Source: a virus
IMG/VR virus record: IMGVR_UViG_3300042731_006565
Location: 1 to 34,080 of that record
Direction: 5' to 3' (one strand)
Length of the DNA stretch: 34,080 bases
Part shown: in pieces, positions 2 through 33,811 of the stretch
Layout: the number at the start of each line of letters is the position of its first letter
How positions within the stretch are numbered: position 1 is the stretch's first letter
Notes under the pieces: model-generated
What the model was told of the DNA's origin: nothing
Database searches by the model: none
The model's input: the letters and a program-made list of their open reading frames with translations, nothing else
Position numbers and translations under genes: made by a program

Positions 2-2554
2 GATGAGGCAATTGGTACTCCTGGATCTACCACCGATAACGCGTTGTCGCGTTGGGACGGCACAGACGGCGGTGCAATCCAGAATTCTGGAGTCACGCTT
101 TCCGATACTGATGCAATGGTCTTCCCAGCCTCCGGGTCAATTTCTAAGCCTTCGCTGCAATCGGGTGCAGAAGCTTATGGAGCAAATGCAGTTGCTGACG
201 CTTTGGACGGTCTGGCTGTTGGTAAGGATGCGACCGTAGGAAATAACGCGTATAATTCGACAGCTATAGGCCAAGGAAGTTCAGTTAGTGCTAGCTCCTT
301 GGATTGTGTGGTAATCGGGCAAGGTTCTACAGTTACAGGTGGAAGTAACGGAAGTTATTGCACGGTTGTGGGTGCCCAAGCAACGGCAGCGCGATTGCGA
401 TGCACAATCATCGGTGAAGGGGCTAAAGGCGACGACTTTGACAACACAGTGGTAGGTCAGAGTGCGGCCGTGTTTGCTCCCAGTGCCGGGAGCAATCAAG
501 GCGCTATAGCCATTGGGCATGATGCTGAGATTGGCAACACTGTTCCAGGTGCAGCGAATGGGGCGGCTATCGTTATTGGCACAGACGCAAAAATTGCGCC
601 AGGTGCGGCAAATGCGGTTTCCATAGGCCCAAACGCAAAGGCCAATACTCCGTCCAGCGGTGATAACAATTATGTGATCGCAATTGGCAGTGACGCTTTG
701 GTTAATTATGACAGCGGCGCAGGTTGTACTAGTGCAATTTGCATTGGTCATTCTGCTGCCATCTATGGCGGTGGCGCTCGAGCGGTATGCGTTGGTGAAA
801 CGGCTAGTTCATTAGGTGGCGCAAATCAAGTTGTTGTCGGTTACGGGGCTAAGGGTGATGTCGATGACGGGATCGTGTCTGTTGGCCACTATGCTTGGGC
901 GTATCCGGAATTCTCGATAGCAATTGGGTCAACATCTAGAGTTTATGAAGAAGGGGCAGGTGACTCTAGCGGTGCAATTGCGCTTGGAAAAAGTGCGGTC
1001 GTCGGTAAGTCTGGCACGCCCGAGGCTGGGTGTGGTGGTGCGATTGCGATCGGTTTGAACAGTTTGGTTAATTATGGATCAATAGGATCTATTGGCATTG
1101 GTGCTGGGTGCAATGTTTCTCATAGTTGTTTGAATACTGTTGCCCTTGGGGCTGGCGTTTCCGTATCTAGTGGTTCTGAAGATTGTACCGTCGTCGGGCA
1201 AGGCGCAACTGTGACAGGAGGCGTTGACCGGTGCACGATCTTGGGTAAAGGCGTTAGTTCGGCATCGGCTGATGTTGTCGCGATAGGGTACGGATCAACC
1301 GTTTCTGCTGGGGCTCAGGAGTCGGTTGTCGTTGGCTCTGGGCTTACTTGTGAGGAAGGTAGGTCTGTATTAATTGGGCTGGATTGTACAATCCACAACA
1401 CAACGGCTGGCGATAGCTTCAATTCTATATTGATTGGCAGTTACTCTTCTATCGCATCGGGTGGGGCTAACGGTTGCGACGCGGCAATCGGAATAGGCTC
1501 TTCTGTCAGCATAGGTGATGGCTGTTTGAATACGATTTGTATTGGAGCCAATGCAACGGCTGATGCAGGGTGTTACGGATCGGTAATCATCGGGCAGGGC
1601 GCTGACGGGAACCAATATTTCCGTTCGGTCGTTATCGGCCAGGTGGCAGATAGCCTGGGGAACAACGCAACGGTTGTAGGCTGGCAAGCTCAGGCCGGTG
1701 CATTGGCTGTTGCGCTTGGATACAGAGCAGCAGTGGCGCAAGCTGCGTCATCTGGGATAGCGATTGGCCGAGATTCATTATCTGACGGTGGCATAGCTTT
1801 GGGCTCTATTGCTAAGGCATTAACAAACAGTTCGATAGCGATAGGGTCCAACACTACAATCAATAGCGCGATTTCAGGAGATAGTGATTCAGCCATTGCT
1901 ATCGGGACTAATTCTGTAATTGGCGGAAGTGGTGAAGCTGGGTGTGGTGCTGCAATTTGTATCGGCTTCAGCGCTAGCGTGGCGCCATCTGCGGAAGACG
2001 CAGTATGTATGGGTGCATCAGCTTCGGCCGCGACCACGGCTAACGCCGCTATCTCGGTCGGTAGCAACGCAGCCGCAGCCGATACTGGTCAGGTAATCAT
2101 AGGCACCGGCGCAATCGGTGGATCGGCTGGTGAATACGGGGTGGCGCTTGGTGGCTCTGCTAGAGCTGATGGCAACCAAGGAACTTGCGTAGGTTATCAG
2201 GCTAGGGTTGATAACGATTATGGCGTTGCCGTGGGTCCTCTCAACCCAAGAGTCGAGGCGGACTTTGGGGTAGCGTTAGGCGCTAACGCTCGGGTCTTAA
2301 TTGGTCATACGGAGGCGATAGCTATAGGGCGCAGCTCGCGGTCTACAGCGGCACATCGCTGCACTATTGGCACGGTTAGCGGCTCGCAGGCCAAAGAGTT
2401 GCAAATTGGCCTCGGCTTAGCGGTCTGGGGAGCAACGCCGCCTGCGTCGCAACCAACCAAAATCAGTGATCCAACTGATTTAGCGTCAGCGTTGACCGCT
2501 ATAGCGTCAATTATTGATGTATTAGAAGGCGCTGGGTTATCCAGTGCGACATAG
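2..2554 (+). CDS. YadA-head-like repetitive fibre protein, 5' partial
   Basis: The frame is open from base 2, so the start lies upstream; at least 850 residues are visible. The first residues (GTPGSTTDNALSRWDG) match a style common near the trimerisation points of phage fibre proteins. The rest is built of about 14-residue units of the form AIAIGxxAxV, the pattern of trimeric-adhesin (YadA) head repeats, which fold as a left-handed beta-roll trimer. The C-terminal 60 residues leave the repeat and end in a helical segment (PTDLASALTAIASIIDVLEG) typical of phage fibre ends. It is unusually cysteine-rich for an adhesin (AICIG, AVCVG, TICIG). It lies upstream of the neck genes rather than next to the tail fibre, so a head fibre or decoration is possible. 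The role as an adhesin is inferred from the fold. The gene lacks the TCTGGA motif after base 91. Confidence 0.8.
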   Translation, partial: DEAIGTPGSTTDNALSRWDGTDGGAIQNSGVTLSDTDAMVFPASGSISKPSLQSGAEAYGANAVADALDGLAVGKDATVGNNAYNSTAIGQGSSVSASSLDCVVIGQGSTVTGGSNGSYCTVVGAQATAARLRCTIIGEGAKGDDFDNTVVGQSAAVFAPSAGSNQGAIAIGHDAEIGNTVPGAANGAAIVIGTDAKIAPGAANAVSIGPNAKANTPSSGDNNYVIAIGSDALVNYDSGAGCTSAICIGHSAAIYGGGARAVCVGETASSLGGANQVVVGYGAKGDVDDGIVSVGHYAWAYPEFSIAIGSTSRVYEEGAGDSSGAIALGKSAVVGKSGTPEAGCGGAIAIGLNSLVNYGSIGSIGIGAGCNVSHSCLNTVALGAGVSVSSGSEDCTVVGQGATVTGGVDRCTILGKGVSSASADVVAIGYGSTVSAGAQESVVVGSGLTCEEGRSVLIGLDCTIHNTTAGDSFNSILIGSYSSIASGGANGCDAAIGIGSSVSIGDGCLNTICIGANATADAGCYGSVIIGQGADGNQYFRSVVIGQVADSLGNNATVVGWQAQAGALAVALGYRAAVAQAASSGIAIGRDSLSDGGIALGSIAKALTNSSIAIGSNTTINSAISGDSDSAIAIGTNSVIGGSGEAGCGAAICIGFSASVAPSAEDAVCMGASASAATTANAAISVGSNAAAADTGQVIIGTGAIGGSAGEYGVALGGSARADGNQGTCVGYQARVDNDYGVAVGPLNPRVEADFGVALGANARVLIGHTEAIAIGRSSRSTAAHRCTIGTVSGSQAKELQIGLGLAVWGATPPASQPTKISDPTDLASALTAIASIIDVLEGAGLSSAT

Positions 2555-2565
2555 AAAGGGACGTC

Positions 2566-2838
2566 ATGAGTAAAGAAAAAATCGTGGAAGCTTTGAAATC
2601 GGTAAAGGGTGAGAACCTTCCCAAGATCGATCCAGAAATTCTGGAGCTACTCGTCACGCTCAAAGAAAAAGCGTTGATGCTTTCAATGGAGGCTCAAGAA
2701 GCGGACCTAGCTTTCCGTCGACACGTGGCAGGAGCGTGCAAGCAAAAAGGGGCGCCGATTGATCGGTCTATCGTGTGTCTCGGTTGTGGATCGATTAGAC
2801 CGGTACAAACCGAACGTTGCCCCAATTGCGTGGGGTAA
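2566..2838 (+). CDS. Small zinc-ribbon protein
   Basis: This encodes 90 residues. The first 60 are predicted to be helical and charged. The C-terminus carries CLGCG-x9-CPNC, a four-cysteine zinc-ribbon pattern that ends two residues before the stop. It begins 11 bases after the fibre gene with AAAGGGA as ribosome site, so it is probably co-transcribed. I do not recognise the family. A structural zinc in a virion-assembly or regulatory protein is possible. An inverted pair of the TCTGGA hexamer (2631-2645) lies inside the gene. Confidence 0.75.
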   Translation: MSKEKIVEALKSVKGENLPKIDPEILELLVTLKEKALMLSMEAQEADLAFRRHVAGACKQKGAPIDRSIVCLGCGSIRPVQTERCPNCVG

Positions 2839-2877
2839 ATGGAGTAGGAGCGGGCTCCATTGGATAGAGGTTGATCA

Positions 2878-3975: not shown

Positions 3976-3985
3976 GAGTATAGAC

Positions 3986-5409: not shown

Positions 5410-5410
5410 C

Positions 5411-7718: not shown

Positions 7719-7720
7719 GC

Positions 7721-8094: not shown

Positions 8095-10410
8095 GTGGCC
8101 ACATCAGTCTTTTTTAACGGAAGGGTCATCTCGGTTCCAGGAAGCTACTCTGAGGTGGACGCCTCGGGGCTCGAAACGGTTGGGCTAGGTGCGGCAGGCA
8201 TTGTAGCTCTGGTCGGCACTGTTGAAGGCGGTCGACCGGTTTCCGATATCGAGGAGGTCAAAGATTTTATTCGGGTGAAAAAACCTGAACAGGCCAACAC
8301 GTTTTTCCGGAGTGGCGATATCAAAGAGGCCATTCCGATGTTGTTCGCCCCAGGCAAAGACCCGAATATCTTGGGCGGTGCGGTCGAAGTAGTGGTGATG
8401 AAGACCAATCCTGCGACAAAAAGCACAGGCGCCTTTTCCAATGCGCAAGGGCCAGCGTTGGAGGTGGAAAGCCTCGATTATGGCGCTTTCACGGAACAGA
8501 TCAACGTCAGCATTGCAGATGGCACCACCCAAGGGAAGCTGCTGACCATCATCTTTGAAGACCAGATCGAATCGGTGGACGACCTAGGAGGTGACGACTT
8601 CTTCAATTTGAAATACGTCAAGCCTACAAACGGTTGGGACACCATGACCGCAGAGGTGTTGGCCGGTGGTATCGTCCAGACCAACGCTACACGGGATGTG
8701 GGTGGTCTTGACGGTGACGTAGGCACCCCAGCCGGAGCGGTGGCGGTTGATGTTGTCAGCACCAGTGGTGCTGACATAGGTCAGGTGGTGACGGTCTACG
8801 GTCTAGATGGGTCAGGTGATCCACAAAAAGAAACCTTCGTGCTCAACGGCACCACGGCTCAGGTCGGTTCTCAGATCTGGGGGGCTGGGGACGTGCTCGG
8901 CGTGAAGGTGGATGGTACGATTGCGGGCACGGTGACCGTGGAGCCTACAGGCGGTGGCGCGGCAATCTTCAGCCTGGCGCCAGCCGCAGACCCGGTCAAA
9001 GGCTTGGTGCGTGGTGTGGCCATGTTTGGCGCCAGCGTGGTCAGTTTGGTGGCCGATGGGGCAACCGTCAAAGACGTGATCCTGGTGGGCACCAATTTGT
9101 CTGGCGCCCAGATTCTGGAAAAGGTGACGCTGACGGGCGCGGTCGGGGTGGACAGCACGGGGGTCTTCGCCACTATTACGGCCATCGTGCTCGGGGATGT
9201 CGAGGCGGCGCGGACCATCACAGCATCCGCAACGGCGGTAAAGCCCACCCCAGCCGTCCACAACACGATCGTGAAAGTTCGAGACTACTATAACGCGCGG
9301 CAGGTGATCCAAGGCGTTACGGTCTACGGCTTCGTTTTCACGCTCGTGACCGGAAAAACCAGCTTTGATCCGGCAAATCTGGATGTCACGGTGAGCGCGG
9401 TGAATTGCCTTAGCCCAGCAGATCCAGGATTTAAGGCGGATTTGTGGGCCATGGTAGATTGGATCAATCAAAATAGCGTGCTTATGTCGGCCACAGCAGT
9501 GAGCGGCGCAAGTGGGGGAGCTGTCGACAATACGGCGGCTCCGGTCTTTTTGACTGGGGGTACAGAGGGGACAGCCCAATTTTTGGATTACCAGACGGCG
9601 CTCAATCTGCTCAAAAAGACGCGCGTGAACAGCATTGTGGTGCTCACGGGTGATCCAGCGGTTCACGCGGCCCTAGACGCGCACTGCGCGTACATGGGCG
9701 GGATCGGGCGCAGCGAACGTGATGGCTTCGTTGGGTTGCTCAACGCGGGTTTAACGGACGTCCCCACCAAGGACGAGGCCAAATCCCAGATTGTGGACCT
9801 CAACACGAGGCATATCCGAGCCTTCGCCCAGGCGATTGAGCGGTTCAACACGGTGGGCGAGCGACAAGAATTTTTGCCACCCTTCCACGCGTGCATTGCT
9901 GCGGGTATGCAGGCGGGCTCAGCGGTCGGTGAAAGCCTGACCTACAAATTTGCCAACGTTGTTGGGTTCCGGCAGCACAACACGTGGAATCCCACGGATG
10001 ACGCCGAGGAGATGATTCAGGCGGGTCTGATGTTCATGGAGGACGTCGAGGGAGTAGGTCGGCGTTTTGTTCGAAATATCACCACCCACTTGTCCAGCAA
10101 CAACATTGCCTACATCGAAGGGAGTGTAAACGAAGCGGTCAACTTCGCCACATTCAATTTCCGCACCAACATGGAATTTGCGGTGGGCCGGAAGGGCTTT
10201 GCGGGTACCATCACGGCGACGCAGGGTATTGCCATCGGGACGTTGGGGCTCTTGGTGGATGCGCAGGTTCTGACCACGTGGCGAAGTTTACAAATTGAGT
10301 TAATTGTTGATGTTATGGAAATTGGTGTTGAGATCGCCCCTGTGATTCCTATAAATTTCGTAAAATCAACAATTCACCTTGTAACGGTGGCACAAACAGC
10401 GGCAGCATAA
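8095..10410 (+). CDS. Contractile tail sheath protein
   Basis: This encodes 771 residues from GTG 8095, 7 bases after a strong CTAGGAGG site. The sheath is the outer tail tube that shortens to drive the inner tube into the cell. The N-terminal part (about 1-200) has the sheath-type phrase YSEVDASGLETVGLGAAGIVAL. The C-terminal third has the conserved region DAEEMIQAGLMFMEDVEGVG, then RNITTHLSSNN, EAVNFATFNFRTNMEFAVGRKG. Between about residues 202 and 395 lies a Gly/Val/Thr-rich beta domain, presumably an inserted surface domain. The tube gene follows 24 bases later. The identification as sheath is firm; the domain boundaries are estimated. Confidence 0.88.
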   Translation: MATSVFFNGRVISVPGSYSEVDASGLETVGLGAAGIVALVGTVEGGRPVSDIEEVKDFIRVKKPEQANTFFRSGDIKEAIPMLFAPGKDPNILGGAVEVVVMKTNPATKSTGAFSNAQGPALEVESLDYGAFTEQINVSIADGTTQGKLLTIIFEDQIESVDDLGGDDFFNLKYVKPTNGWDTMTAEVLAGGIVQTNATRDVGGLDGDVGTPAGAVAVDVVSTSGADIGQVVTVYGLDGSGDPQKETFVLNGTTAQVGSQIWGAGDVLGVKVDGTIAGTVTVEPTGGGAAIFSLAPAADPVKGLVRGVAMFGASVVSLVADGATVKDVILVGTNLSGAQILEKVTLTGAVGVDSTGVFATITAIVLGDVEAARTITASATAVKPTPAVHNTIVKVRDYYNARQVIQGVTVYGFVFTLVTGKTSFDPANLDVTVSAVNCLSPADPGFKADLWAMVDWINQNSVLMSATAVSGASGGAVDNTAAPVFLTGGTEGTAQFLDYQTALNLLKKTRVNSIVVLTGDPAVHAALDAHCAYMGGIGRSERDGFVGLLNAGLTDVPTKDEAKSQIVDLNTRHIRAFAQAIERFNTVGERQEFLPPFHACIAAGMQAGSAVGESLTYKFANVVGFRQHNTWNPTDDAEEMIQAGLMFMEDVEGVGRRFVRNITTHLSSNNIAYIEGSVNEAVNFATFNFRTNMEFAVGRKGFAGTITATQGIAIGTLGLLVDAQVLTTWRSLQIELIVDVMEIGVEIAPVIPINFVKSTIHLVTVAQTAAA

Positions 10411-10434: not shown

Positions 10435-10881
10435 GTGGCTGAAAAAGGAAGACTTTTTACTGGCGCTCGGGCGCGCTTCAGCATCAACGGCGTGAAGGTC
10501 GGCTATGCCCGCAACGTGGCCGTGACAGAGGAGATCCAATACGATCCGGTTGAAATTCTGGATAACATCGAGGTCGAAGAATACGTGCCGGTCGCCTATC
10601 GGGTGACCTTCACAGCATCGCAATTTCGGATCATCGGCGAAACGGTCAAATCGTTGGGCTACTTCCCGAACGTCGGCCAAAACGTCGAAGAGCATCTGGA
10701 AAACATTTTGATCAGCGGCGATTTGACGGCGACCGTCGAGGACACGAAGACCGGAAAGTTGTTCGCGACTTTGGAGCAAGTCAAGGTCGCTTCGCACAAC
10801 TGGACCATCGATGCGCGCGGTGTGGTCGGGGAGGACCTAACGTTCGTCGCAATTCGCGTCAAAGACGAATCCGAGATTTGA
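10435..10881 (+). CDS. Tail tube protein
   Basis: This encodes 148 residues from GTG 10435 behind AGGAGAAC. It forms the inner tube through which DNA passes. The sequence is a short beta-rich fold (GARARFSINGVKVGYARNV, PVEILDNIEVEEYVPVAYRV, WTIDARGVVGEDLTFVAIRV) of the size and pattern of T4 gp19/phage-tube family proteins. Its position directly after the sheath gene supports the call. It is followed by a noncoding interval with hairpins and a terminator, which would allow tube mRNA to accumulate separately from the chaperone and tape measure. Confidence 0.85.
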   Translation: MAEKGRLFTGARARFSINGVKVGYARNVAVTEEIQYDPVEILDNIEVEEYVPVAYRVTFTASQFRIIGETVKSLGYFPNVGQNVEEHLENILISGDLTATVEDTKTGKLFATLEQVKVASHNWTIDARGVVGEDLTFVAIRVKDESEI

Positions 10882-10989: not shown

Positions 10990-11100
10990 CGGGCATTGCA
11001 TTTTTCTTCGCGTTTCGGCTATCACGGTCACCGCAGGTGTTTGGCAGCTTATGATCTAGGTGGTCTGGATCAGACGTTGCCGGCGCCACACTCCGTTTGG

Positions 11101-12012: not shown

Positions 12013-14195
12013 TGCCGCGCGAAGTACGGACAGACCTACTGCTATCGATGAAAACCCAGGGCATGGCCCAGGGGCAGCAAGAGACTGCTCGGGTCGCCCG
12101 AGAAGCACAAAAAGCCATTGATGCGCAGGTAAAGGGATTCGCGACTTCTGGAAAGTCGATGCAGGCGGTCGAGAAAGAGATCGGACGTCTGGAAGAGACT
12201 CTTCAAGGTCTGGCCGTACGTCAGGCGGCAATCAACCGGGAAATGGAGAAGGTCGGCGATACAGGGACCAAGGAATACAAGGCCCTATCGCGAGAGCTGA
12301 AGCAAGTCCGGCAAGAAGCTGGACAGGTAACCGGCGCGATTTCGAGTCTGGATCGTGCCTTCCTGAAGGCCAAGGCGTCTCGCCAAGGTTTCGCTCAGGG
12401 CCTCATGCAGGGTTTCGCCCCAGGCGTGGCAGGCTACCTTCAGCGTGGCCCGGGCATGCGCCAGCAAATGATGGGAGCGGCTATTGGCGGATTTGCCCGT
12501 AGGGGGTTAGGGGCCGTGGGGGGCGGCTTACGGGCGGCCGGGACCTCGTTGACTGGGGGAATGTTCGCAGGTGCTCAAGGTGTAGCGCAAGGTTTGGGCG
12601 CCATGCCGCTGGTGGGGGGCATTTTGGGTCCTGCGGCGTCTCGCGCATTAGCGCAGGCTCAGCAACGGATGCAGGCGCAACAGGTCGAGCTCCAGACCAT
12701 GCCCTTTGTGGGAGGTATCGGGCTGCGTGGTGAGGCGGCGCGCGCGGGTGCGCGGGCGCGAGGAACCATTTCCGATCAGGAAATCGCGGGTCGAGTTGCG
12801 CAGGCGGGAACCCTTGGACGGCTTCTGCCTTCCGAGGAGAATTTCGCCCGGGCGAGGAAGGAGATCCAAGCTCAGCGGGGCGCGCGTAGGGAGCAATTGC
12901 GTCCCTTCATGGCCGGCAAGATGGGCGGCCCGGTCTTTGGCATGCGGGAAGCAGGGGAACGCCTTGCTGGGGGGCAAGAAGACGAGGGCGCAATAGAACT
13001 ACGAGCGATGGATCTGGCCGGTAAAGAAGCTGAAGAGAGAGTGCAGCGCGGTTTGCAACGTGAACGTGCAAGCCGTGGTCAACGAGCTCGGCGACGCGTC
13101 ATGGGCCGGTTAGAGCTTGGGATGGGTACTCAATTCGGCATGGACATCAATGCCGAACGCCAATTTCGGGCTCAGGTGCAGCAGGTCGGCGGGGGTTACG
13201 GGGATACCGCACAAGAAGTCAGCATGTCGCGTACCGCTATGGCGGCGCAAACGGCGTTCGGGATAGGCGGCGACATTTCTGGAGCTTTCCTCCAGGCGGG
13301 GCGTCGTGGGGGTCTTGTAGGCGCCGAGGGCGGCGCTTCGCGCATGCTTACGGATTCACTTGCGGATGCCATGAAAATGGGTCTGGAAGGGTCTGAGGTC
13401 ACCGATTACTTGCAGCAGATGGCAGCGGGGATCAGTTCCTGGAAAACGACAGGGATCCCATTCAACAAGCAATCCATGGCCGATATCGCGGGGACGCTGG
13501 GCACCATGGGAATGGGCGGCGTGCGCGGGATGGCGGTGGCTGGGGGAGTTTCCAGAGCGGCCGAGCAGCTTTCCAGAACTGGCCCGCAATCGGTGGGCCA
13601 GTTGATGATGCTCCAGACATTGGGCGGAATGACTCCCGGCAAGAGCGGGATGGAGGCGATGGAAGAAGCGCTCATCAAGCTCGAAGAGAAGCAGTTCAAG
13701 GGTGAGGATTTCAAATTGCTCATGGAACGGCTGACCACGGCCGGGGGAGGTGGCGCCGAAGGGCGGCGCGTAGCTTACGGCGTGTTGAGCAACATGGGGA
13801 TCAATATCACCCGGGGCGAGTTGAAACGTCTGGATGAGGGTGTGCCGATCCAAACCTGGGAGCAAGAACGCGAACGCCGCATGCAGGGAGAAAAATTGGC
13901 CGGAAAGGTGGCACGTGATCCACAGGCGTTGATTAAGGCGGCTGCGGACGCGGTCCCGAATGCTCTGAAAGAACAAGCGCGGCTGACCAACCGACAGATC
14001 GCCAACGGCGCAAAACTCATCGACTCAATGTCGCAGTTGGAAGCTGTCGCTCAGAAGATGACCGAGCTGATGACTGAGCTACTTGCTCCGGTATTCAAGA
14101 AATTGGGCGTGGTGACTGAAGACCTTTCTGGGAATATCGCGGGCATGCAGGCGCAAGCCAAGAATTGGGTAGAATCAATCGAAACGGGGCCGTAA
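12012..14195 (+). CDS. Tape measure protein
   Basis: This encodes 727 residues; its ATG overlaps the previous stop by one base. The N-terminal 110 residues are coiled coil (EKEIGRLEETLQGLAVRQAA, KALSRELKQVRQEAGQV). Gly/Ala/Met-rich stretches follow (GAAIGGFARRGLGAVGGGLR and VQQVGGGYGD regions), then more helices, with a C-terminal coiled coil (SQLEAVAQKMTELMTELLAPVF). No lysozyme or peptidase domain is evident. It sits in the canonical place after the chaperones and before the hub. The tape measure sets tail length; at about 1.5 Angstrom per residue this would suggest a tail of about 110 nm, a rough estimate. Confidence 0.82.
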   Translation: MPREVRTDLLLSMKTQGMAQGQQETARVAREAQKAIDAQVKGFATSGKSMQAVEKEIGRLEETLQGLAVRQAAINREMEKVGDTGTKEYKALSRELKQVRQEAGQVTGAISSLDRAFLKAKASRQGFAQGLMQGFAPGVAGYLQRGPGMRQQMMGAAIGGFARRGLGAVGGGLRAAGTSLTGGMFAGAQGVAQGLGAMPLVGGILGPAASRALAQAQQRMQAQQVELQTMPFVGGIGLRGEAARAGARARGTISDQEIAGRVAQAGTLGRLLPSEENFARARKEIQAQRGARREQLRPFMAGKMGGPVFGMREAGERLAGGQEDEGAIELRAMDLAGKEAEERVQRGLQRERASRGQRARRRVMGRLELGMGTQFGMDINAERQFRAQVQQVGGGYGDTAQEVSMSRTAMAAQTAFGIGGDISGAFLQAGRRGGLVGAEGGASRMLTDSLADAMKMGLEGSEVTDYLQQMAAGISSWKTTGIPFNKQSMADIAGTLGTMGMGGVRGMAVAGGVSRAAEQLSRTGPQSVGQLMMLQTLGGMTPGKSGMEAMEEALIKLEEKQFKGEDFKLLMERLTTAGGGGAEGRRVAYGVLSNMGINITRGELKRLDEGVPIQTWEQERERRMQGEKLAGKVARDPQALIKAAADAVPNALKEQARLTNRQIANGAKLIDSMSQLEAVAQKMTELMTELLAPVFKKLGVVTEDLSGNIAGMQAQAKNWVESIETGP

Positions 14196-17083: not shown

Positions 17084-17290
17084 ATGGCAATGGACAAGAC
17101 CGCACTGGTTAACGCTATCAAAGCTGATTTAAAACAACGGCTGTATGATGATTTAAATCCACCAGATTCAGCTACCGTGGATGACTTTGCACCATTGGCA
17201 ACGGTTTTGGCGGAAGAGATAGCAGGGGCAGTCATTCAGCATATTCTGGATAATGCGGAAACTGATCCAGGCGGTGAAGGGATCCTCTAG
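17084..17290 (+). CDS. Small helical baseplate-region protein
   Basis: This encodes 68 acidic residues behind AGGGGAAAAG. The ATG at 17084 is followed by a second in-frame ATG at 17090. A single helical region (ALVNAIKADLKQRLYDDL, LATVLAEEIAGAVIQHIL) covers most of it. It lies between spike and LysM/gp25 genes in a tight operon. The function is not recognisable; a minor baseplate or chaperone role is possible. Confidence 0.6.
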   Translation: MAMDKTALVNAIKADLKQRLYDDLNPPDSATVDDFAPLATVLAEEIAGAVIQHILDNAETDPGGEGIL

Positions 17291-23428: not shown

Positions 23429-26131
23429 ATGCCAAACGATCTACTTCGTGCCTACGCAAACGAGCGTGTCGACCTCGTCGACTTCGATTTTTTAGCTGAT
23501 AGCGGTTTACAGGCCAATATCCGGCAACCGAATGAACAGTTTTTTACGGATCCGTCCGGACAACGTGCTTGGATCATTGACGGTTTTGAAATTGATAATC
23601 CGTCTGGAGATCAAGTGCGCGTGTTCAAAGGGCGCGCAATTCTTGGTCAGCGTGAAGGCGCGCTGGTGCACTATGGCGCGTTGACGGTCGAGGGCGACAC
23701 CGAAAAGATCGTCGACATGAGTACGTTGACCCCAGCCGCGAATTACGGGCTCTACGTGCGTTTTGAATTTGTGGATGGGAATACCAGTTCTAGAATTTTC
23801 TGGAATCCGGCTGGGACAGGTACCGAGGTCGCCCAGGCGGTTGCGACTAGGCGTAACGCCAACTGGTCGATCCGTATCGAGCTGACCAATCCGGGTAGCG
23901 AATATTTGAAGATCGCAACACTCGATAATACGGGCGTTGGCGTAGCTATCACGGACGAACGGCCTATGTATTTTGAGGGTGAGATCCACAACTCCTACGA
24001 AAGCGGGTGGAGCACTGACGGTGGTGGAGGATCAAACGACCGGAACGCAGATCGTCAGCAGTACGGCGTGAAGGATTTCCAGACTTTTACGGCGGCGATG
24101 CGTCAATGCTTGGAGGACATCAAGGGTCGAGGACTTCGGCGTTGGTGGGAACGTGATATTGGTGGACTGAACGTCGGATTTGACGCTGACCCTGTAGAGA
24201 ATAGGGTTGCCGTGGGTGACGGCAACTTCAGCCTGTACTACGATGGGACCGACCCTTTCATCTATTTCGGCGCAGATGATTACCTCCAATTTGATCGGTC
24301 GCTTACCGCGTTTTATTTAGCACCGAACAATAATAAATTGTTTCGGGTTGATACATCTGGAACCAGAGTAAACGGGATTGCGATTCATGATACTCTATCG
24401 TTGCAACCGGAAACCGATAAAATTCTCATCCATGACGTAAATTTTGGGTTGACCTGGGATGGGACTGATCCAAATTTCCTCTGGGATTCTAGTGATTATA
24501 CCACGTTTGACCGGTCAGAAAATTTTCTACAGACGTTTATCGCTGGAACGAAAGAACTCCAAGTCGAAGAAGACGGCGTTCGCGTCCGAGGCCTTGCGAT
24601 CAGTAGCAATAATTCAGTGAATCCTGGTGTTGGTGGTATGTATGTCGGTGATGCGAATTTTGTACTTTATAGCGATGGTAGCGAGCCGTATATCAAGTTT
24701 GATGGCGCTATTTCGACTCGTGACGAGCTCCGATATTTCCGATCAACGAATCGTCTGATTGTCTACATCAGCGGGAATACGATTTGGGAGGCGAACGCAA
24801 TCGGCACTAAAAGCCGAGGGTTATCCATTTCTAACGATTTAAGTGTAGCAGCCATCACGGATGGCCTCACGATTGGTGACTCCGGTTATTACTTATTTTG
24901 GGATGGGATTGACCCGTACCTCTATTTTGATACGAACGACTATTTGTGGTACGACCGCGATCTCGATACGCACGGGGGCCTTAACGTCGTAATCAATAGC
25001 GCTGTAGAGGCAAAGCTGAGCAGCAACGGACTAATTGTAAAAGGTCTGTCCGTGGATTCGACGCTTGCTTCTGCGCCTCCTGCTGATAACACGCTAAAAG
25101 TCGGTAACTCCAATTTCAGCTTGTACTGGGATGGATCCAATAGCTTCATTTACCTGGGAGCGTCTGACACCTACTTCACGCACGTTTCCGCAGCAAGCGT
25201 TCTTGACCTCTACATCAACGGCTCTGCTATGTGGCAGACGGGAACCGTCGGCACCAAAGTTAAAGGGCTAGCTGTTTCCTCCGGTTTGAGTCTGAACCCT
25301 GTAGCTGGGAGAGTCACGGTCGGTGACGCCGACTTTTATTTATACGATGACAGTACCGACGCCTTCATCCACTTCGACGGTACTTCGCCTAATGATGCCT
25401 ACCTAAAATTTGACCGGAGTTCTACCGGTTTTGAGTTTTATACGTTGAACACTAAAAGGCATGCATGGACGTTTGACAGTGGGTGGATGCTTGGTCAATC
25501 CGGCCTTACTGGTCTAGTCGATGAAGGGGAGTACACTTATGACAGCTCTAGGGGTCTGTGGGCTGTTCGAGACCAGAATAACACTGGGTCTGTGAATACG
25601 CATGTGAAGAAGGGTTCTTCGTCACTGATTCGTAAAGTTTTTGCTTACCCTTTGACCATAACAACCACTGAAACAATCATCGCAAACGCTTGCGTTAAGG
25701 CTGGAAGGCAAGGCTCGAAAGTATTTCGATTGATCACCTGGGGAACTGCTGTAGGGAATGCGTCCAATAGACTTTATTTGAGGCTTGGGGTACGGGAAGG
25801 CGTCACAAACCAGGAAATTCAAAACTACTTTTTCGAGCCTGACGCCCCTAACACCGATGACGACGTTAGGGATCAATGGTGGGCCGAATGTTTATTTGAC
25901 ATGGCCACTGGCGGTACGAGCGCGAGAATCAAAACGTTCTCTCGGATGGCAAAGCACGAATCATCCGGTGTTGCTGCCACAACGATAAACGCCTCCACTA
26001 GTTATGATAAGGTAGTTGGTGTCAATATGGATTCATCAGACCTGATACTGTATCTCAGTGCTGATACCGACGTGGGGACAGTGACTGTTAACGTGCGGAG
26101 CTTTTTGGTAGAAGAACTGTTCGGGCAATAG
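23429..26131 (+). CDS. Tail fibre protein with six tandem beta repeats
   Basis: This encodes 900 residues. The N-terminal 240 residues (MPNDLLRAYANERVDLVDFD) look like an attachment domain. From about residue 259 to 710 there are six degenerate repeats of about 71-76 residues, each with VGDxxFxLYxDGxDPyIYF, a DYLxFDR-like turn, and a GTKVxGLAxSxxLS segment. A C-terminal 190-residue region (LIRKVFAYPLTITTTETIIA, VVGVNMDSSDLILYLSAD, VRSFLVEELFGQ) is a likely receptor-binding tip. The start sits ten bases after the baseplate gene, with GGAGATAACC in front. The TCTGGA motif stops at 24361 within this gene. Receptor binding is inferred from position and architecture. Confidence 0.78.
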   Translation: MPNDLLRAYANERVDLVDFDFLADSGLQANIRQPNEQFFTDPSGQRAWIIDGFEIDNPSGDQVRVFKGRAILGQREGALVHYGALTVEGDTEKIVDMSTLTPAANYGLYVRFEFVDGNTSSRIFWNPAGTGTEVAQAVATRRNANWSIRIELTNPGSEYLKIATLDNTGVGVAITDERPMYFEGEIHNSYESGWSTDGGGGSNDRNADRQQYGVKDFQTFTAAMRQCLEDIKGRGLRRWWERDIGGLNVGFDADPVENRVAVGDGNFSLYYDGTDPFIYFGADDYLQFDRSLTAFYLAPNNNKLFRVDTSGTRVNGIAIHDTLSLQPETDKILIHDVNFGLTWDGTDPNFLWDSSDYTTFDRSENFLQTFIAGTKELQVEEDGVRVRGLAISSNNSVNPGVGGMYVGDANFVLYSDGSEPYIKFDGAISTRDELRYFRSTNRLIVYISGNTIWEANAIGTKSRGLSISNDLSVAAITDGLTIGDSGYYLFWDGIDPYLYFDTNDYLWYDRDLDTHGGLNVVINSAVEAKLSSNGLIVKGLSVDSTLASAPPADNTLKVGNSNFSLYWDGSNSFIYLGASDTYFTHVSAASVLDLYINGSAMWQTGTVGTKVKGLAVSSGLSLNPVAGRVTVGDADFYLYDDSTDAFIHFDGTSPNDAYLKFDRSSTGFEFYTLNTKRHAWTFDSGWMLGQSGLTGLVDEGEYTYDSSRGLWAVRDQNNTGSVNTHVKKGSSSLIRKVFAYPLTITTTETIIANACVKAGRQGSKVFRLITWGTAVGNASNRLYLRLGVREGVTNQEIQNYFFEPDAPNTDDDVRDQWWAECLFDMATGGTSARIKTFSRMAKHESSGVAATTINASTSYDKVVGVNMDSSDLILYLSADTDVGTVTVNVRSFLVEELFGQ
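24202..25580. repeat. Six tandem degenerate repeats in tail fibre
   Basis: At protein level six copies of a 71-76-residue unit run head to tail, beginning at about 24202, 24415, 24640, 24868, 25096 and 25312. The shared core is GD-x-FxLY-x-DG-x-DP, then DYLxFDR and GLxVSxxLS. The DNA of the copies has diverged. Start positions are estimated to within about 20 bases. Confidence 0.65.
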
Positions 26132-26146
26132 AGAGGAAAAGTAGTA

Positions 26147-26449
26147 ATGACGAGTAGAGAAGAGCAAATCAAATTTGAAAAAGAAAAAGACCAGTACGTC
26201 CAGAAACTCTTGGAGGGCAAAGAACCGGTACCAAATGAGGTATCCTCTTTTTTGCTGGAAAAATTGAAGGATACAAATGCGGAATTCAAGGCCGTGCTCC
26301 AGACTTTGCAGCAAGCTGAACAAGTGGTGGCGCAAAGCAAACAACGCGGGATCGAAATCCGAGGCGTGCTGAAACAATATGCGGACAATCTTTACGAGCA
26401 GCGAAAAGACGCTGACTCCCCAGACGAAAAACGCATAGTCACTCCGTAG
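26147..26449 (+). CDS. Small coiled-coil protein after tail fibre
   Basis: This encodes 100 charged residues behind GAGAGGAAAAG. It is almost wholly helical with heptad character (EEQIKFEKEKDQYVQKLL, FKAVLQTLQQAEQVVAQSKQ). Its position directly after the fibre gene would suit a fibre-assembly chaperone; a baseplate or lysis accessory is also possible. No family is recognised. Confidence 0.6.
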   Translation: MTSREEQIKFEKEKDQYVQKLLEGKEPVPNEVSSFLLEKLKDTNAEFKAVLQTLQQAEQVVAQSKQRGIEIRGVLKQYADNLYEQRKDADSPDEKRIVTP

Positions 26450-26603: not shown

Positions 26604-26861
26604 ATGAAGACGCTAATCTGGAAATACCTTGGTGCGATGTTCATGGAGCCTAAAGGCCCTAACGGTGAACAGGCTGTCAGTTTCACCCGATTTTTGGGCT
26701 TTATTCTGTTCATTGCGTGCCTTTGCATTTGGGTGGCTGGTACCTTTACCGCAGAGCCTTTGACCATTGCAGATGGGATGCTCTACACGCTGTGGGGGCT
26801 GATCGGGATCAAGGGGGCGAAGGACGTGGCGATCGGATTGCGTCGAGAGGGCAAGCCGTGA
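26604..26861 (+). CDS. Holin-like small membrane protein
   Basis: This encodes 85 residues with two hydrophobic segments, about 26-49 (VSFTRFLGFILFIACLCIWV) and 55-73 (ADGMLYTLWGLIGIKGA), and a basic C-terminus (GLRREGKP). This is the size and topology of class II holins, which open the inner membrane at lysis time. Its stop overlaps the next start as GTGA. No endolysin is visible in this window. The call is inference from topology and position. Confidence 0.6.
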   Translation: MKTLIWKYLGAMFMEPKGPNGEQAVSFTRFLGFILFIACLCIWVAGTFTAEPLTIADGMLYTLWGLIGIKGAKDVAIGLRREGKP

Positions 26862-27196
26862 TCCAGAAAATAGTCAATTGGCTTAGAGACTACTGGCAAT
26901 TGACTTTACTGATCCTGGTATCACCCCTGTTGCTCCTTTTCTGGATCACCAAAAAGTCTGGAAAGACGCCAGCAAACACGCTTGAGACGGAGTTGGCGGC
27001 GATCAAGGCTAAACAGGAAACCCGAAAGGTTCAGCTCGCGCATGGCGCTGAGAAGGCAAAGCGGCTCGTAATGTTCAAGTACGCGCAGAAGCGTCAAAGT
27101 CTGGACGCCAAACAGCGAGCTCGGGTCAAAAGTCTGGAAAACAATCCCGAGGAACTCGCGGCGCTTCTGGAGCGTTTGACACGGCGACCGGATTGA
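26858..27196 (+). CDS. Inner-membrane spanin-like protein
   Basis: The start chosen is GTG 26858, four bases back over the preceding stop. A longer extension to 26717 runs inside the previous gene and was rejected. The product is 112 residues: an N-terminal transmembrane helix (about 12-31, LTLLILVSPLLLLFWI) and a highly charged coiled coil ending in a short acidic-basic tail. This is the architecture of Rz-like i-spanins, which span the periplasm and destroy the outer membrane. Its immediate partner order (holin-like, then this) supports the call. A classic embedded lipoprotein (o-spanin) was not recognised. Confidence 0.55.
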   Translation: MIQKIVNWLRDYWQLTLLILVSPLLLLFWITKKSGKTPANTLETELAAIKAKQETRKVQLAHGAEKAKRLVMFKYAQKRQSLDAKQRARVKSLENNPEELAALLERLTRRPD

Positions 27197-27731: not shown

Positions 27732-27769
27732 CTGTGATTACTGGTGAACTTTTTTTTTGAAAAAAGAAC

Positions 27770-27973: not shown

Positions 27974-28017
27974 GATCCGTTAGACCTCGAAAAGGGATTT
28001 CTAGTAGTCAATATTAA

Positions 28018-28151: not shown

Positions 28152-28191
28152 ATTTGGAATATCTACGTAATGACTGGGAAGAGAAGAAGCT

Positions 28192-29700
28192 ATGATTCTG
28201 AAGGTTACCATACCTAAGACCTATATCCAGTCATGGTCCTACCAGGAGATCAACCACCTAGATTTAGAGTTACGGTACCCAACGGATATGGCTGAGGCTA
28301 TAGCTTCTGGATTTGCTAGGTCTTTCCCCGTAGGGGAAGGTCAATGGGATGGGTGGATTAAGCTCCTTCATCGGCCTATGACTATGGATCCGTGGTTCCC
28401 TACTGGTCTTCTTCCTCGGGTACTCCGGATTTGCTCCAAGATGGGCTTCCCAGTCCAAATCGAGGACCAGAGGTTGCGTCCAGAAGAGGGATTTCCAGAA
28501 TTCGTCAAAAAACCCATTGTAGATCGGGCATATCAGTTGAAGGCGGTGGATCTGGCTATCCAGAAAGGTTCCGGTGTTCTGGATATGGTACCTCGTTCTG
28601 GAAAGACGAGGTGCGCGTGCGAGATTCAACGGCGTATCGCTCTGCCGACGCTGTGGATTGCTCCAACGGATCGAATCGTGCGCCAAACGCAAGGAGTTCT
28701 GGAAAACTTTTTCGGCCGTAACTACGCGATACATCTGGTAGGAACGGCGAAAACTGAGGAAGTGATGTTCACCAACGTTGTGGTTTGCACGGCGGCCACC
28801 GCTGTGCGCCTCAGTCCAGAATTTTATCAGACCCGGAAAGTCATCATCGTGGACGAGTTCCATCGGTCGGCCGCGAAGACGTACAAGCAGATCTTCGCCA
28901 AATGCGCCCATATCTACTACCGGTTTGGGATGACCGGTACCTTCTTTCGGTCCGGTCTGGATGGCATGGCCATGCACGCGTTGCTGTCCGATACGATCTA
29001 CCGAGTGACCGCGAAAGAGCTTCTGGAATTGGGATTCCTGGTCCCCACGAAGGTGGTCTTTCTCCCAGTCTTATCGCCTCGCTTGCGGAACTTACCGGAT
29101 CAGAGCTTCCAGAATGCTCATGGCAAATTCGGTATCCAGAATCATGACCATCGCAACCAGCTTGTGACGATGGCGACGGTCTATTTGTACCAGGCGGGAA
29201 AACGCGTGTTGGTGCTCGTGGGCACGAAGGCGCACGGCCGGCGCCTGCGAGATGCGATTCAAGGCTACATCCAACCGGCTCCAGAAAAAGCTAGATTCCA
29301 GAGCGTGGAGTTCCTCAACGCGGAAACGCCTCGACCGATCCAAGGCGAGGTGATCGAAAGTTTTCTGGAAGGTAGGGAGGTGAAGGTATTAATCGGTACC
29401 AGCTTGCTCGGCGAGGGCGTGGACCTCCCGAGCGCGGATGCGCTCGTCTATGCGCGCGGGGAGAAAGCTCGGGTATCGCTGACCCAAAACGCCTATCGGG
29501 TCGGGACTGCCACCCCAGGCAAAACGCAGGCTCTGCTCGTGGATTTTGCTGATCGCCACAACAAGCATTTGATGCGACACAGCTTGAATCGTCTGGAAGT
29601 TTACCATGCTGAAGATACCTTTTCAGTTGAGGTGTTACAGGATCCCAATGGGTTTCTTCCTTGGCTTCGAGAGCATAGCGGTGAAAAAGTGTCTGACTGA
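28192..29700 (+). CDS. SF2 DNA/RNA helicase, UvsW-like
   Basis: This encodes 502 residues. It has the helicase core motifs in order: motif I MVPRSGKT (132-139), motif II IIVDEFHR (218-225, a DExH box), motif III MTGT (247-250), a second RecA-like domain with KVLIGTSLLGEGVDLP, and motif VI QNAYRVGT (432-439). The N-terminal 115 residues are an accessory domain. Family members remodel replication forks and R-loops in phages such as T4. Motif VI lacks the usual second arginine (a Thr is at that place), and motif I uses PRSGKT instead of GTGKT/GSGKT. It is the first gene of the replication cluster. Confidence 0.85.
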   Translation: MILKVTIPKTYIQSWSYQEINHLDLELRYPTDMAEAIASGFARSFPVGEGQWDGWIKLLHRPMTMDPWFPTGLLPRVLRICSKMGFPVQIEDQRLRPEEGFPEFVKKPIVDRAYQLKAVDLAIQKGSGVLDMVPRSGKTRCACEIQRRIALPTLWIAPTDRIVRQTQGVLENFFGRNYAIHLVGTAKTEEVMFTNVVVCTAATAVRLSPEFYQTRKVIIVDEFHRSAAKTYKQIFAKCAHIYYRFGMTGTFFRSGLDGMAMHALLSDTIYRVTAKELLELGFLVPTKVVFLPVLSPRLRNLPDQSFQNAHGKFGIQNHDHRNQLVTMATVYLYQAGKRVLVLVGTKAHGRRLRDAIQGYIQPAPEKARFQSVEFLNAETPRPIQGEVIESFLEGREVKVLIGTSLLGEGVDLPSADALVYARGEKARVSLTQNAYRVGTATPGKTQALLVDFADRHNKHLMRHSLNRLEVYHAEDTFSVEVLQDPNGFLPWLREHSGEKVSD

Positions 29701-29727
29701 TTTTCTGGATTGGCGTTATTCCTAGGT
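29693..29727 (+). promoter_or_regulatory. Promoter-like repeated element, copy B
   Basis: CTGACT (29693-29698), an 18-base spacer, TATTCC (29717-29722) and TAGGT. It matches the element at 27770-27804 across the whole length and overlaps the end of the helicase gene. Its transcript would start near 29,729, giving an untranslated leader of about 120 bases to the next gene. The leader contains a small GGAAG/CTTCC hairpin. Confidence 0.55.
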
Positions 29728-29851
29728 GATGGGAATTGCTGCGATGGATTTGACGTGCTACTTGGGAAGGGTGCTTCCTTGGCACGCGATGCCCGCTGGA
29801 CCTCAAGCGTCCCGCGTATTGGTCTGGCGGGCAATTTTTTCTGGAGAAAAA

Positions 29852-30244: not shown

Positions 30245-30278
30245 CAACGGTTAGCTAAAATAAAGGGGGCGCACGGTC

Positions 30279-30533
30279 GTGCCAAAACGGAAGAAGTATC
30301 TCGGCCCGGAATCGGATTTTTTTGACAATCTGAAGGGTCGTATCGTCAAGATTGAGTTCAACACGGTTCCTGCTCGGAAGGGGCTGCTTGCTCGATTGGA
30401 CTGGGTTGATCGTTATACTGTTGGTGTCCGTGACCCTCAAACCGGACGTAGGATCATGTTGTACAAGCAGAGCATTCACACTCTTGAGAGGAGCGATGGC
30501 GATGGAACTGCAATCAATTCTGGACGATTATAA
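30279..30533 (+). CDS. Hfq/Sm-like small RNA-binding-fold protein
   Basis: This encodes 84 residues from GTG 30279, ten bases after AAGGGGG. Residues 1-15 are basic; from about 16 to 72 a five-strand Sm pattern can be drawn: GRIVKIEFNT, then GLLARLDWVDRYTVGVRD, then a TGRR turn and IMLYKQSIHTLE. The last phrase resembles the YKHAIST motif of Hfq, and LDWVDRYTVGV resembles its FDQFVILL strand. Hfq pairs small RNAs with mRNA. The gene lies among helicase and DNA-replication genes and overlaps the next start by about 32 bases. The fold is inferred from pattern; the RNA-binding role is unproven. Confidence 0.55.
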   Translation: MPKRKKYLGPESDFFDNLKGRIVKIEFNTVPARKGLLARLDWVDRYTVGVRDPQTGRRIMLYKQSIHTLERSDGDGTAINSGRL

Positions 30534-31140
30534 TTATTACCGGTCCTATACGGCGCACGTGCAGCAGATGAGGGCCAAGGGCGGTTACGTTCGGCAATTG
30601 AAAATGCGAACCAAGAAGGAAGATCGGCAGCCATTTTTTCAGGCGATGGCTGATTTTTGTCAGCAGCATCGTCTCGACCCGAAACTCTGGCTCTATCTAC
30701 TTTTCAAGATACGGGGTTGGCGCGCGGCACCACGTGTTGATCAATTGGTACCCAAAAGCAAGAAAACGCTCCAGAAAAATCTGGAACTCTACGCCGACCT
30801 ATCCGACCTTCCTCTTTTCCAGAAACACCGACATGAGAAGCAGCAGACGGCAGCGGTCCAGAATGGTACGGCTTGGGACGTCAACCGTGATATCGGTTAC
30901 AGCACCGAGGCTTTAAAACGGCGGTACATCAACGAGGGCGATGCAGAGCGTTGTTTGAGTGAGCTCGAAGAGCGCACCTACGGGTTTCATCCCCGAAGTC
31001 TGGTATGCGCTCGATGTCCGTTGAAAACGGAATGCACGCAGAAACTCGAAGCGAAATTTGGCGCGCATATCGTGCCGTTACGTCGTGGAGACATCACGAT
31101 CCAGCAGGCTCAGCAACTGACATTGTTTAGAAATGGTTAA
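30502..31140 (+). CDS. Replication-cluster protein with C-terminal cysteine cluster
   Basis: The start chosen is ATG 30502, eight bases after AGAGGAG. ATG 30496 is too close to that site. An extension to 30352 falls within the previous gene. The product is about 212 residues: helical and basic, with a tryptophan-rich centre (DPKLWLYLLFKIRGWRAA) and a C-terminal CARCPLKTEC at about residues 171-180. A C-x2-C-x5-C pattern is seen in zinc or iron-sulphur sites of nucleic-acid proteins. Its 3' end overlaps the helicase start by eight bases. Loader or nuclease-accessory roles would suit the context but cannot be shown. Confidence 0.6.
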   Translation: MELQSILDDYNYYRSYTAHVQQMRAKGGYVRQLKMRTKKEDRQPFFQAMADFCQQHRLDPKLWLYLLFKIRGWRAAPRVDQLVPKSKKTLQKNLELYADLSDLPLFQKHRHEKQQTAAVQNGTAWDVNRDIGYSTEALKRRYINEGDAERCLSELEERTYGFHPRSLVCARCPLKTECTQKLEAKFGAHIVPLRRGDITIQQAQQLTLFRNG

Positions 31141-32545
31141 TAGGACACCGATCGAGGAGTCCCGTCATTTTCCGTTTGATATAGCCTTTCAAGGCAGCCT
31201 ATTGCGGTTGCTCTGCGAAGATGACGGGTTTGCGCATGCTCTGGGGAAATACCTCCAGCCGCATTACTTCGAGAACGAAGTAATGGCGTGGGCGTATAGC
31301 TATTCGCAGCGGCATGTTGAGGAATACGGAAAAATGCCGTCATTGGGCGTGTTGCTCCAGAAAACCAGGACCATGGATGCCAGGGTGGCCCCAGTCTACA
31401 CGGCGGTAATTGAGCAGGTGATGTTTGCGCCGTTGGATGATGAGCAATGGTTGAAAGATAACGTTCTGGATTTTGTGAAGCGCAACATTTTTGCTCGAAC
31501 CTTTCACGAAAGTAGGGAGTTGTATAATTCTGGAAAGATAAGCTCTGCTTATGACCTGATGCAGGAACGGATGGAAGAGCTTTATCGGGTAAGCTGGGAA
31601 GAAGTCGATGATGGGTGGATCGCCGACGAGTATGGCGCTCGGGAAGTACGGCGTTCAATTGAAGATCCTGGTGATAACGTGGTTCCGACTGGGTTCAACT
31701 GGCTGGATCACATCCTAAACGGTGGCTTGAGTTTGGGTGAGCTGGGTATCTGGATTGCTTACTCAAAGGTCGGGAAAACGACGATGCTCGTCCAGCATGG
31801 CAAATGCGCCGTTCGAGATGCGTTCGTGCCCACTGCCCATTTCGTTTTCGAGAGTTCCAGAAAGCAGGTGGAAAACCGCTATGACGCTAGTTTTTCTGGA
31901 GAGCTGTACGCCAAGGTAAAATCCGGAAACACTGATGCCGAGCTCTATCAGAAGGCGTTTCGCAATTATCAGTTGCTCAAGGGTAAGTTGGTGGTGTCCG
32001 GGTTCGTCGAGCGTTGGAACTACACGGTCAAGGACATCGACGACAAGCTGAAGGAATTGAAGCGCTCACACGGTTTTCGGCCACGGTTGGTAATCGTTGA
32101 CTACGGCGATTTGTTGACGGGTCGAGAGCGGCGTTACAATAACGAGTACGAGCGCCAAAAAGCGGCATTCCGGGACCTGAAGAGCTTAGCTAATAGAGGC
32201 TACGCTCTGTGGACTGCTTCCCAGGCGCAACGACCCAAGGCGGGTGTTGAAGAGCAAGCCCACTTCGTCAAAAGTCGTCAGATTGCTGACAGCTACGAAA
32301 AGATCCGGGTGTCTGATTTCATTGGAAGCTTGAACCAAACTCCTGATGAGAAAACGGACGGCGTGATGAGGCTTTATGCGGAGTTGTATCGCGAAAATTC
32401 GGCGGACTGTTGGATACCGGTGAAGGCTGACATGGCGCGAATGACCATCGAGCAACAGGACGGTATTGCGTCGCCATCGATGCCTGTGCAGCAATCGGCG
32501 TCTCTTGGCTTTGTGCCACCGACTCAGCTACATGCGCCGATCTGA
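31133..32545 (+). CDS. Replicative DNA helicase, DnaB type
   Basis: This encodes 470 residues. An N-terminal helical domain (about 1-150) is followed by the RecA-like core. The sequence VPTGFNWLDHILNGGLSLGE leads into a Walker A with AYSKVGKTT (209-217), then LVIVDYGDLL as Walker B (Asp 323), then WTASQAQRP as the later Q/S motif. This order is diagnostic of DnaB/RadA-type ring helicases, which unwind the replication fork 5' to 3'. The first glycine of Walker A is an alanine here. The gene directly precedes a primase gene with a one-base overlap, as expected for a helicase-primase pair. Confidence 0.88.
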   Translation: MVNRTPIEESRHFPFDIAFQGSLLRLLCEDDGFAHALGKYLQPHYFENEVMAWAYSYSQRHVEEYGKMPSLGVLLQKTRTMDARVAPVYTAVIEQVMFAPLDDEQWLKDNVLDFVKRNIFARTFHESRELYNSGKISSAYDLMQERMEELYRVSWEEVDDGWIADEYGAREVRRSIEDPGDNVVPTGFNWLDHILNGGLSLGELGIWIAYSKVGKTTMLVQHGKCAVRDAFVPTAHFVFESSRKQVENRYDASFSGELYAKVKSGNTDAELYQKAFRNYQLLKGKLVVSGFVERWNYTVKDIDDKLKELKRSHGFRPRLVIVDYGDLLTGRERRYNNEYERQKAAFRDLKSLANRGYALWTASQAQRPKAGVEEQAHFVKSRQIADSYEKIRVSDFIGSLNQTPDEKTDGVMRLYAELYRENSADCWIPVKADMARMTIEQQDGIASPSMPVQQSASLGFVPPTQLHAPI

Positions 32546-33552
32546 TGCTGTTACGCACTGCTATCCAGAATTTCGATGTGGCGAACTACGTGCTGGGCCA
32601 TGGTGCTGAGCCTGGGAAGACTGACGAGTGGGTGCTGACATGCCCGATGTGCGGTAAGAAAAAATTGGCCGTTCATATCGAGCGGCGCACCTGGCATTGC
32701 TGGATTTGCGAGCAGTACGCGGTGGGTGCGGATGGTCGTAGGCGTCCGGTTCGTGGCGCTGGGGGCGTTCTGGATCTGATCCAGCTCCTGGAGGGCGTCG
32801 AACGCGAGAGGGCTATCGACATGGTGCTGAGCGGTGCCATGTTTGGCTACGTGGATATCGGGTTGGTGCCTCCCGAGGAGATGGCCGACGATATCCATCG
32901 AGCGTACAAACCCGCGCCATCAATACCTTTTCCAGATTTTTGGAAACCAGCTACCGGCATATTGCCGTTTTGCCAAAAACGTGGTATCTTGGATGCAGAT
33001 ATCCGTATGTTTGGGATTGGCTGGTGTGATGCTGGCCGTTGCGCGGGGCGTCTCGTGTTTCCTGTCTGGGAAGAGCAGCGGTTCGTGTACTACCAAGCCC
33101 GGGCGATGTGGCCCCTTCGGGCGGGAGATATCAAGGCGCTGAATCCTCCGGCAACGGAGGGTGCAGCCGTGAGCAGTGAGGTGCTGATGAATCTGGACCA
33201 GGCGAGGCACTATCCTAGGGTGGCGGTCGTTGAGGGGCCTACGGATCTTGTCAGGACCGGACCGGATGCCGTGTGCACGTTCGGGAAGCAAATCACGGCG
33301 CCTCAGATTGCTAGGCTCAGACGTGCTGGCGTCCGAGCGTTGGATTTGATGTGGGATGGCCCGAGCTCGACTGAGCCTCGGGGAGCATGGGATGAGATGC
33401 TGGCGGTAGCGCCAATGTTGGCAGCGTTGTTTGATCTGCGATTGGTTTGGTTGCCGCATGGTGATCCAGGGGACCATTCCAGAGAGGCATTGAACTGGTT
33501 TCGGTATCACGCTCGATCGGTGGGTGGGGCATCCGATATCCAGGTATTATGA
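32545..33552 (+). CDS. DNA primase, zinc-finger and TOPRIM domains
   Basis: This encodes 335 residues; its ATG overlaps the helicase stop by one base. Residues 33-55 contain CPMC-x15-CWIC, the zinc finger that reads the primer start site. Residues 120-215 form an alpha/beta linker with KRGILDADIRMFGIGWC and GRLVFPVW, typical of the DnaG RNA-polymerase basin. VEGPTD (Glu 230) begins the TOPRIM fold, with MWDGPSS as a reduced second acidic motif. Primases of this type make RNA primers at the fork with the DnaB-type helicase. It is about half the length of bacterial DnaG. Confidence 0.8.
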   Translation: MLLRTAIQNFDVANYVLGHGAEPGKTDEWVLTCPMCGKKKLAVHIERRTWHCWICEQYAVGADGRRRPVRGAGGVLDLIQLLEGVERERAIDMVLSGAMFGYVDIGLVPPEEMADDIHRAYKPAPSIPFPDFWKPATGILPFCQKRGILDADIRMFGIGWCDAGRCAGRLVFPVWEEQRFVYYQARAMWPLRAGDIKALNPPATEGAAVSSEVLMNLDQARHYPRVAVVEGPTDLVRTGPDAVCTFGKQITAPQIARLRRAGVRALDLMWDGPSSTEPRGAWDEMLAVAPMLAALFDLRLVWLPHGDPGDHSREALNWFRYHARSVGGASDIQVL

Positions 33553-33568
33553 GGTGCGAGGTGCGAGT

Positions 33569-33811
33569 ATGAGGGCTTTGAACGAACGTGTAAAAACAGA
33601 CATGAGGTTACCGCGCCGGCTGGTCGTGCTCATCGAGGAGGCCTCGCTTCAATTGGGAGTACCCAAGAACGCTCTCATGGTGATCGCTGCCGCGAAGCTG
33701 GTGGCCGAGTTGTCCAAAGGCGTCACCCCAGGCAAAAAACGTCTGAAAATGTTGGATGAGCTGGAAGAGGAAGTCCAGAAAGTTTTCGATGATGCCAAAA
33801 AACGTGCGTAG
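33569..33811 (+). CDS. Ribbon-helix-helix-like small DNA-binding protein
   Basis: This encodes 80 residues from ATG 33569; an extension to 33524 would overlap the primase. The start follows two GAGGTGCGA-type sites. A short strand (TDMRLPRRLVVLIEEAS) and two helices (LGVPKNALMVIAAAKLVAE, MLDELEEEVQKVFDDAKK) follow the order of ribbon-helix-helix repressors. Such proteins bind operators as dimers, so regulation of this cluster is possible. The identification rests on pattern only. Confidence 0.5.
   Translation: MRALNERVKTDMRLPRRLVVLIEEASLQLGVPKNALMVIAAAKLVAELSKGVTPGKKRLKMLDELEEEVQKVFDDAKKRA

Follow-up and report, generated by a model that had tools for sequence, protein, structure and literature searches.

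Hyper-iterated DNA words are known from bacteria, in which the way they are maintained is debated. The stretch analyzed here, a viral DNA of 34,080 nucleotides (hereafter the window), raises the question of why a single short word, TCTGGA with its complement TCCAGA, is repeated along phage DNA, and of what could read it. An earlier note, made from the sequence alone, had put the number of copies at about 140, against some 17 expected by chance, and had assigned the signal to the level of DNA rather than to that of codons or proteins.

Enrichment of TCTGGA in the Window

Exact counting gave 86 copies of TCTGGA and 58 of TCCAGA, 144 in all, distributed over both strands between positions 78 and 33779 (first start at 78, last start at 33774), compared with 16.4 expected from base composition, which confirmed the observation of the earlier note. 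A maximal-order Markov model, which expects 88 copies, still ranked the word as the top hexamer of the window, and synonymous-codon shuffling, with every protein and the codon usage held fixed, yielded 28.6±4.8 coding copies versus the 135 present, the most extreme excess among all hexamers. In every test the word leads all hexamers. When the synonymous opportunities in the open frames of the window were considered, TCTGGA was used at 138 of 352 (39%), whereas the corresponding values were 4% for TCCGGA and 8% for TGCGGA.

The copies, at a density of 4.2 per kb, occupy all six frame/strand classes (27/9/42 for TCTGGA and 4/22/31 for TCCAGA), as had been claimed for the coding frames, and the TCC-AGA noted in the 13,550s is found at 13551–13556 on the minus strand, reading in frame as Ser-Arg. 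According to the exact count and the gene map, three copies of TCTGGA are intergenic on the plus strand, at 11064–11069, 17245–17250 and 29704–29709; two of these had been placed at 11,049 and 29,703, close to their true positions. In addition, a cluster of six copies (26862–27171) lies outside the listed genes, partly in an unlisted open reading frame at 26717–27196. The core comprises six bases, with a softer TT- ahead and A behind, which gives the extended word TTTCTGGAA. Of the earlier description of mixed orientations and free flanks, the first part stood, the enrichment being alike in both orientations relative to transcription and free of orientation bias, and the second held only roughly, as T occupies position -1 in 58% of the copies and positions -4 to -2 are A/T-rich. 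Words overlapping TCTGGA, such as CCAGAA and CTGGAA, are likewise enriched in the window, and its one-mismatch neighbours occur at chance level. The gaps between copies are near random or mildly clustered, which rules out regular spacing.

A few regions are poor in the word. From 87 to 2630 (plus strand) there are 2545 bases to the next copy, and the first open frame (2–2554) carries copies at 78 and 86 only. A second gap of 1843 bases (24362–26198, plus strand) falls within the gene for a 900-aa protein (23429–26131), in which copies are nearly absent, and they are sparse in the tail sheath gene. The record L001 is the window's own virus with 972 additional bases upstream and overlaps the window without mismatch; these upstream bases (1–972 of L001) contain neither TCTGGA nor TCCAGA.

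A Family of SPO1-Like Phages Carrying the Word

The window, taken from IMG/VR, is a piece of an SPO1-like myovirus with a genome of about 110 kb. Its structural and replication genes are syntenic with those of SPO1-like phages: it encodes, on the plus strand, a tail sheath protein (8095–10410), whose profile served to find relatives in genomes, an adjoining 148-aa protein (10435–10881), here called the tube protein, and, as identified by protein scan, a DEAD/UvsW-like helicase (28192–29700), a DnaB-like replicative helicase (31133–32545) and a DnaG-like primase with a zinc-ribbon (32545–33552), the last being a candidate reader of the word; baseplate J is encoded as well. In Pseudomonas phage Dolphis the protein syntenic to the 148-aa gene is annotated as the major tail protein. 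The replication genes of the window are ordered as in SPO1-like Herelleviridae, with protein identities of roughly 23–38%. About 100 mid-protein residues of the SPO1-like homologues are missing from the UvsW-like helicase.

Single-sequence searches for relatives of the window returned none, or the same virus only. When IMG/VR was scanned for clustered TTCTGGA without any use of homology, the only standout besides the window's own virus, among the matches listed, was L032; most of the other contigs listed in this first motif scan carried one-strand, one-frame repeats and were not true carriers. The 63.7 kb record of L032 (G001) contains 150 copies, versus 21 of the reversed word, and shares gene-by-gene synteny with the window, at protein identities of about 28–74%. 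A profile of the 148-aa protein retrieved 44 relatives. In two further motif scans the top-scoring locus among the matches listed was L379, whose 110 kb record (G404) holds 514 copies and is a member of the same phage family. Another contig, L404/G406 (L501), was rejected as a carrier, with TCTGGA in tandem copies 7 bases apart, clustered at several places in the contig. The high-scoring, low-GC contig L472/G408, of which a 12.3 kb piece gave no family match, has 41 copies of TCTGGA versus 11.8 expected and may be an independent carrier outside the family. Literature searches on the TCTGGA word and on primase sites over-represented in phages gave nothing relevant.

Dialects of the Word among Relatives

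In many members of the family TCTGGA ranks first, and others have TCCGGA, TGCGGA, GAGCTC or none. With codon control, TCTGGA leads in G013 (272 vs. 87), G009 (278 vs. 97) and G404 (450 vs. 131), TCCGGA in G014 (299 vs. 58) and TGCGGA in G012 (342 vs. 97); only one- or two-base differences separate these three words. Another clade of relatives uses GAGCTC, a looser CTGGA word was observed in G007, and the loci L135–L137 are without TCTGGA though their 148-aa protein is 82–83% identical to that of the window. When the dialects were placed on the sheath tree, 19 changes were required, versus 24.3 for shuffled labels, so the word is partly tied to phage descent, yet changes often; many of the dialect loci are short, and the labels of small contigs are uncertain.

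Several further observations concern individual phages. GAGCTT, GAGCTC and GCTCGAG are enriched in the additional relatives L514, L515, L521 and G012, which form a second dialect group. Phage Dolphis (L125) shows a codon-controlled excess of TGATCA (31 vs. 10.8) and CGATCG (55 vs. 25.4) and is thus another phage with over-represented palindromes. G014 (L187–L192) encodes an S-AdoMet lyase, a ddrB-ParB domain and a zeta-toxin domain, and G013 (L181–L186) encodes intein/Hint domains, an ADP-ribosylglycohydrolase and RuvC.

Selection on the Sites

G009 and G013 can be aligned over 66 kb at 70.6% DNA identity, and in this alignment 49% of TCTGGA occurrences are kept, versus 16% for the mean hexamer, which shows that purifying selection holds the sites. 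TCTGGA ranks fourth of 1556 hexamers in conservation, and the three above it are overlapping parts of TTTCTGGAA. In nine overlapping pairs pooled, TCTGGA is conserved at 58% versus 23%, and in pairs that include a relative without the word the excess is small or absent. Conservation in relatives thus agrees with the codon shuffles and with the occurrence of the word in every frame and on either strand, and the placement of the signal at the DNA level was borne out. A drive at the level of amino acids was rejected: opportunities for TCTGGA, compared with shuffled proteins, are similarly high in phages that use other words, so that most of the pressure is synonymous. An origin of the word from a methylated TCCGGA palindrome that decayed through deamination was also discarded, as, by frame pattern, copies for which P-to-L would be required outnumber synonymous ones, and as more than 140 ancestral sites would be needed.

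Candidate Readers and Hosts

The methyltransferase gene that the earlier note had suggested seeking did not come to light in the TCTGGA phages searched for two methylase families. C5 methylases (PF00145) are absent from all seven relatives searched, an N6/N4 methylase (PF01555) was found among these seven only in G012, whose word differs, and no methylase was seen among the scanned proteins of the window. A RecA-like recombinase is encoded by six of the seven relatives searched, and only the partial record G001 yielded none. In a tblastn comparison of 35 genes in ten genomes, primase similarity followed dialect best, with a gap of 0.082 (next gene, 0.040). With more loci this gap fell to 0.035, tied with a neighbouring gene, and L176 is without TCTGGA although its primase and that of G001 share 84% identity; the primase is thus kept as a candidate only. 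An insertion in the primases of TCTGGA phages was dismissed as a marker, being present also in phages without the word.

Among 379 Myxococcota genomes (TTCTGGA counted) and 299 Pseudomonadota genomes (TTTCTGGA counted), none came near the phage density, and twelve high-ratio Myxococcota genomes showed no clear codon-controlled excess in the parts that were read. The closest relative in the genome collection is located in a Myxococcales MAG, CP070713.1, in which family contigs (L216, about 3182000–3262000) are joined by 100-N scaffold gaps within the 'chromosome'. As the phage contig stands between 100-N joins, its link to the MAG is one of binning, and a binning or scaffolding artefact is likely, rather than a prophage. 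The MAG that holds a GAGCTC phage itself favours GAGCTC, more weakly (357 vs. 176); a composition common to phage and MAG is partly expected because of binning.

Explanations for the Word

The presence of the word, its retention and its lineage swaps point to a sequence-reading system acting on the phage's own DNA. We infer that the site has a protein reader, of which the phage is a more likely source than the host, and that this protein takes part in a process on phage DNA. The reading that we prefer, with a probability of about 0.4, is that TCTGGA (TTTCTGGAA) is a putative genome-wide site for a factor in phage replication, recombination or genome maintenance. A sequence-specific DNA-binding factor would recognise the sites on both strands and, once bound, would act on phage DNA in one of these processes; the reader may be a phage-encoded factor, and among the candidates is the phage primase. 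The balance tips slightly toward such a factor because motif searches showed the word to track the phage family and did not find it at phage density in the bacteria sampled; as host sampling is incomplete, phage-encoded and host-set readers are both to be considered. For the close relatives without the word (L135–L137 and L176), a reader that is exchanged quickly, or an influence of the host, would have to be assumed. It appears unlikely that the phage goes as far as specifying its own address code, in which reader and hundreds of words would co-evolve into new dialects (TCTGGA, TCCGGA, TGCGGA, GAGCTC) and would label the phage's DNA, its bases unmodified, as a target of replication, recombination or protection.

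The main rival, which we regard as conceivable though rather doubtful, is a host-set Chi-like signal, by which a RecBCD/AddAB-type nuclease would spare word-bearing DNA, the phage would accordingly load its genome with copies, and the word would change with the host. Over-representation of Chi in E. coli phages without recombinases (PMC3784561) provides a precedent. Also consistent with it are the differences of the word between relatives, which a change of host would bring about, the purifying selection and the GAGCTC preference common to a phage and its MAG. However, RecA-like genes in most relatives weaken a model built on recombinase-less phages, the word has no orientation bias, its density far exceeds the 0.2 per kb reported for Chi (PMC3784561), none of the 678 Myxococcota and Pseudomonadota genomes reaches the phage level, and the GAGCTC link itself depends on binning. 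Protection by modification, with copies of a phage- or host-encoded methyltransferase target being kept because the modification shields the DNA, is improbable: the methylase of G012 and the palindromes TCCGGA and GAGCTC, which are of the restriction-site kind, would suit it, but the methylases sought are absent from the TCTGGA genomes searched, and G014, with its TCCGGA word, has an S-AdoMet lyase instead. More improbable still is an uptake or transfer signal of a competent host, in which biased uptake and recombination would enrich the word in host and phage; dialects one or two bases apart and A/T-rich flanks resemble those of uptake sequences, but the 678 genomes of two phyla include no bacterial carrier. 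Codon, codon-pair or compositional bias alone, with a functionless word, can hardly be entertained, since, despite the enrichment of the overlapping words CCAGAA and CTGGAA, it is contradicted by the codon shuffles, by copies on both strands, in all frames and between genes, by neighbours at chance level and by site conservation three times the background; it is largely refuted.

A factor reading the word on phage DNA, the preferred reading, can be pursued within a phage family of about 110 kb genomes in which the word is present, absent or changed by one or two bases among relatives. Purifying selection, together with the finding of no methylase in TCTGGA members, opens the question of the reader to comparison and binding assays.

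Comparison with Known Systems

The window resembles SPO1-like Herelleviridae in gene order and in distant homology of the adaptor, baseplate J, UvsW-like helicase, DnaB and primase, whereas the SPO1-like reference stretches (L122–L124) are without a hyper-iterated hexamer. The earlier note had likened the word to highly iterated motifs while leaving its role unassigned, and this likeness is supported by an enrichment far beyond what composition and codon usage predict, in every frame of either strand, and by the conservation of the sites among relatives. Chi of E. coli is GCTGGTGG. Like Chi in phages, which is short, non-palindromic, over-represented in some phages and expected to vary with the host (PMC3784561), TCTGGA is a short non-palindromic word; unlike it, TCTGGA is about 20 times denser, lacks strand bias, both orientations being similarly enriched, occurs in phages that encode RecA-like proteins and have relatives with palindromic words, and is without a bacterial carrier among the 678 genomes sampled. 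With the Neisseria DUS and Haemophilus USS the word has in common a high density, copies on both strands, dialects and A/T-rich flanks, but it was found in phages and in none of the bacterial genomes sampled. HIP1, the highly iterated palindrome GCGATCGC of cyanobacteria, is likewise a hyper-iterated word at the DNA level that occurs in all frames; by contrast, the word described here belongs to a phage family, is non-palindromic in the window and in most members, and has diverged into the dialects of distinct phage lineages.
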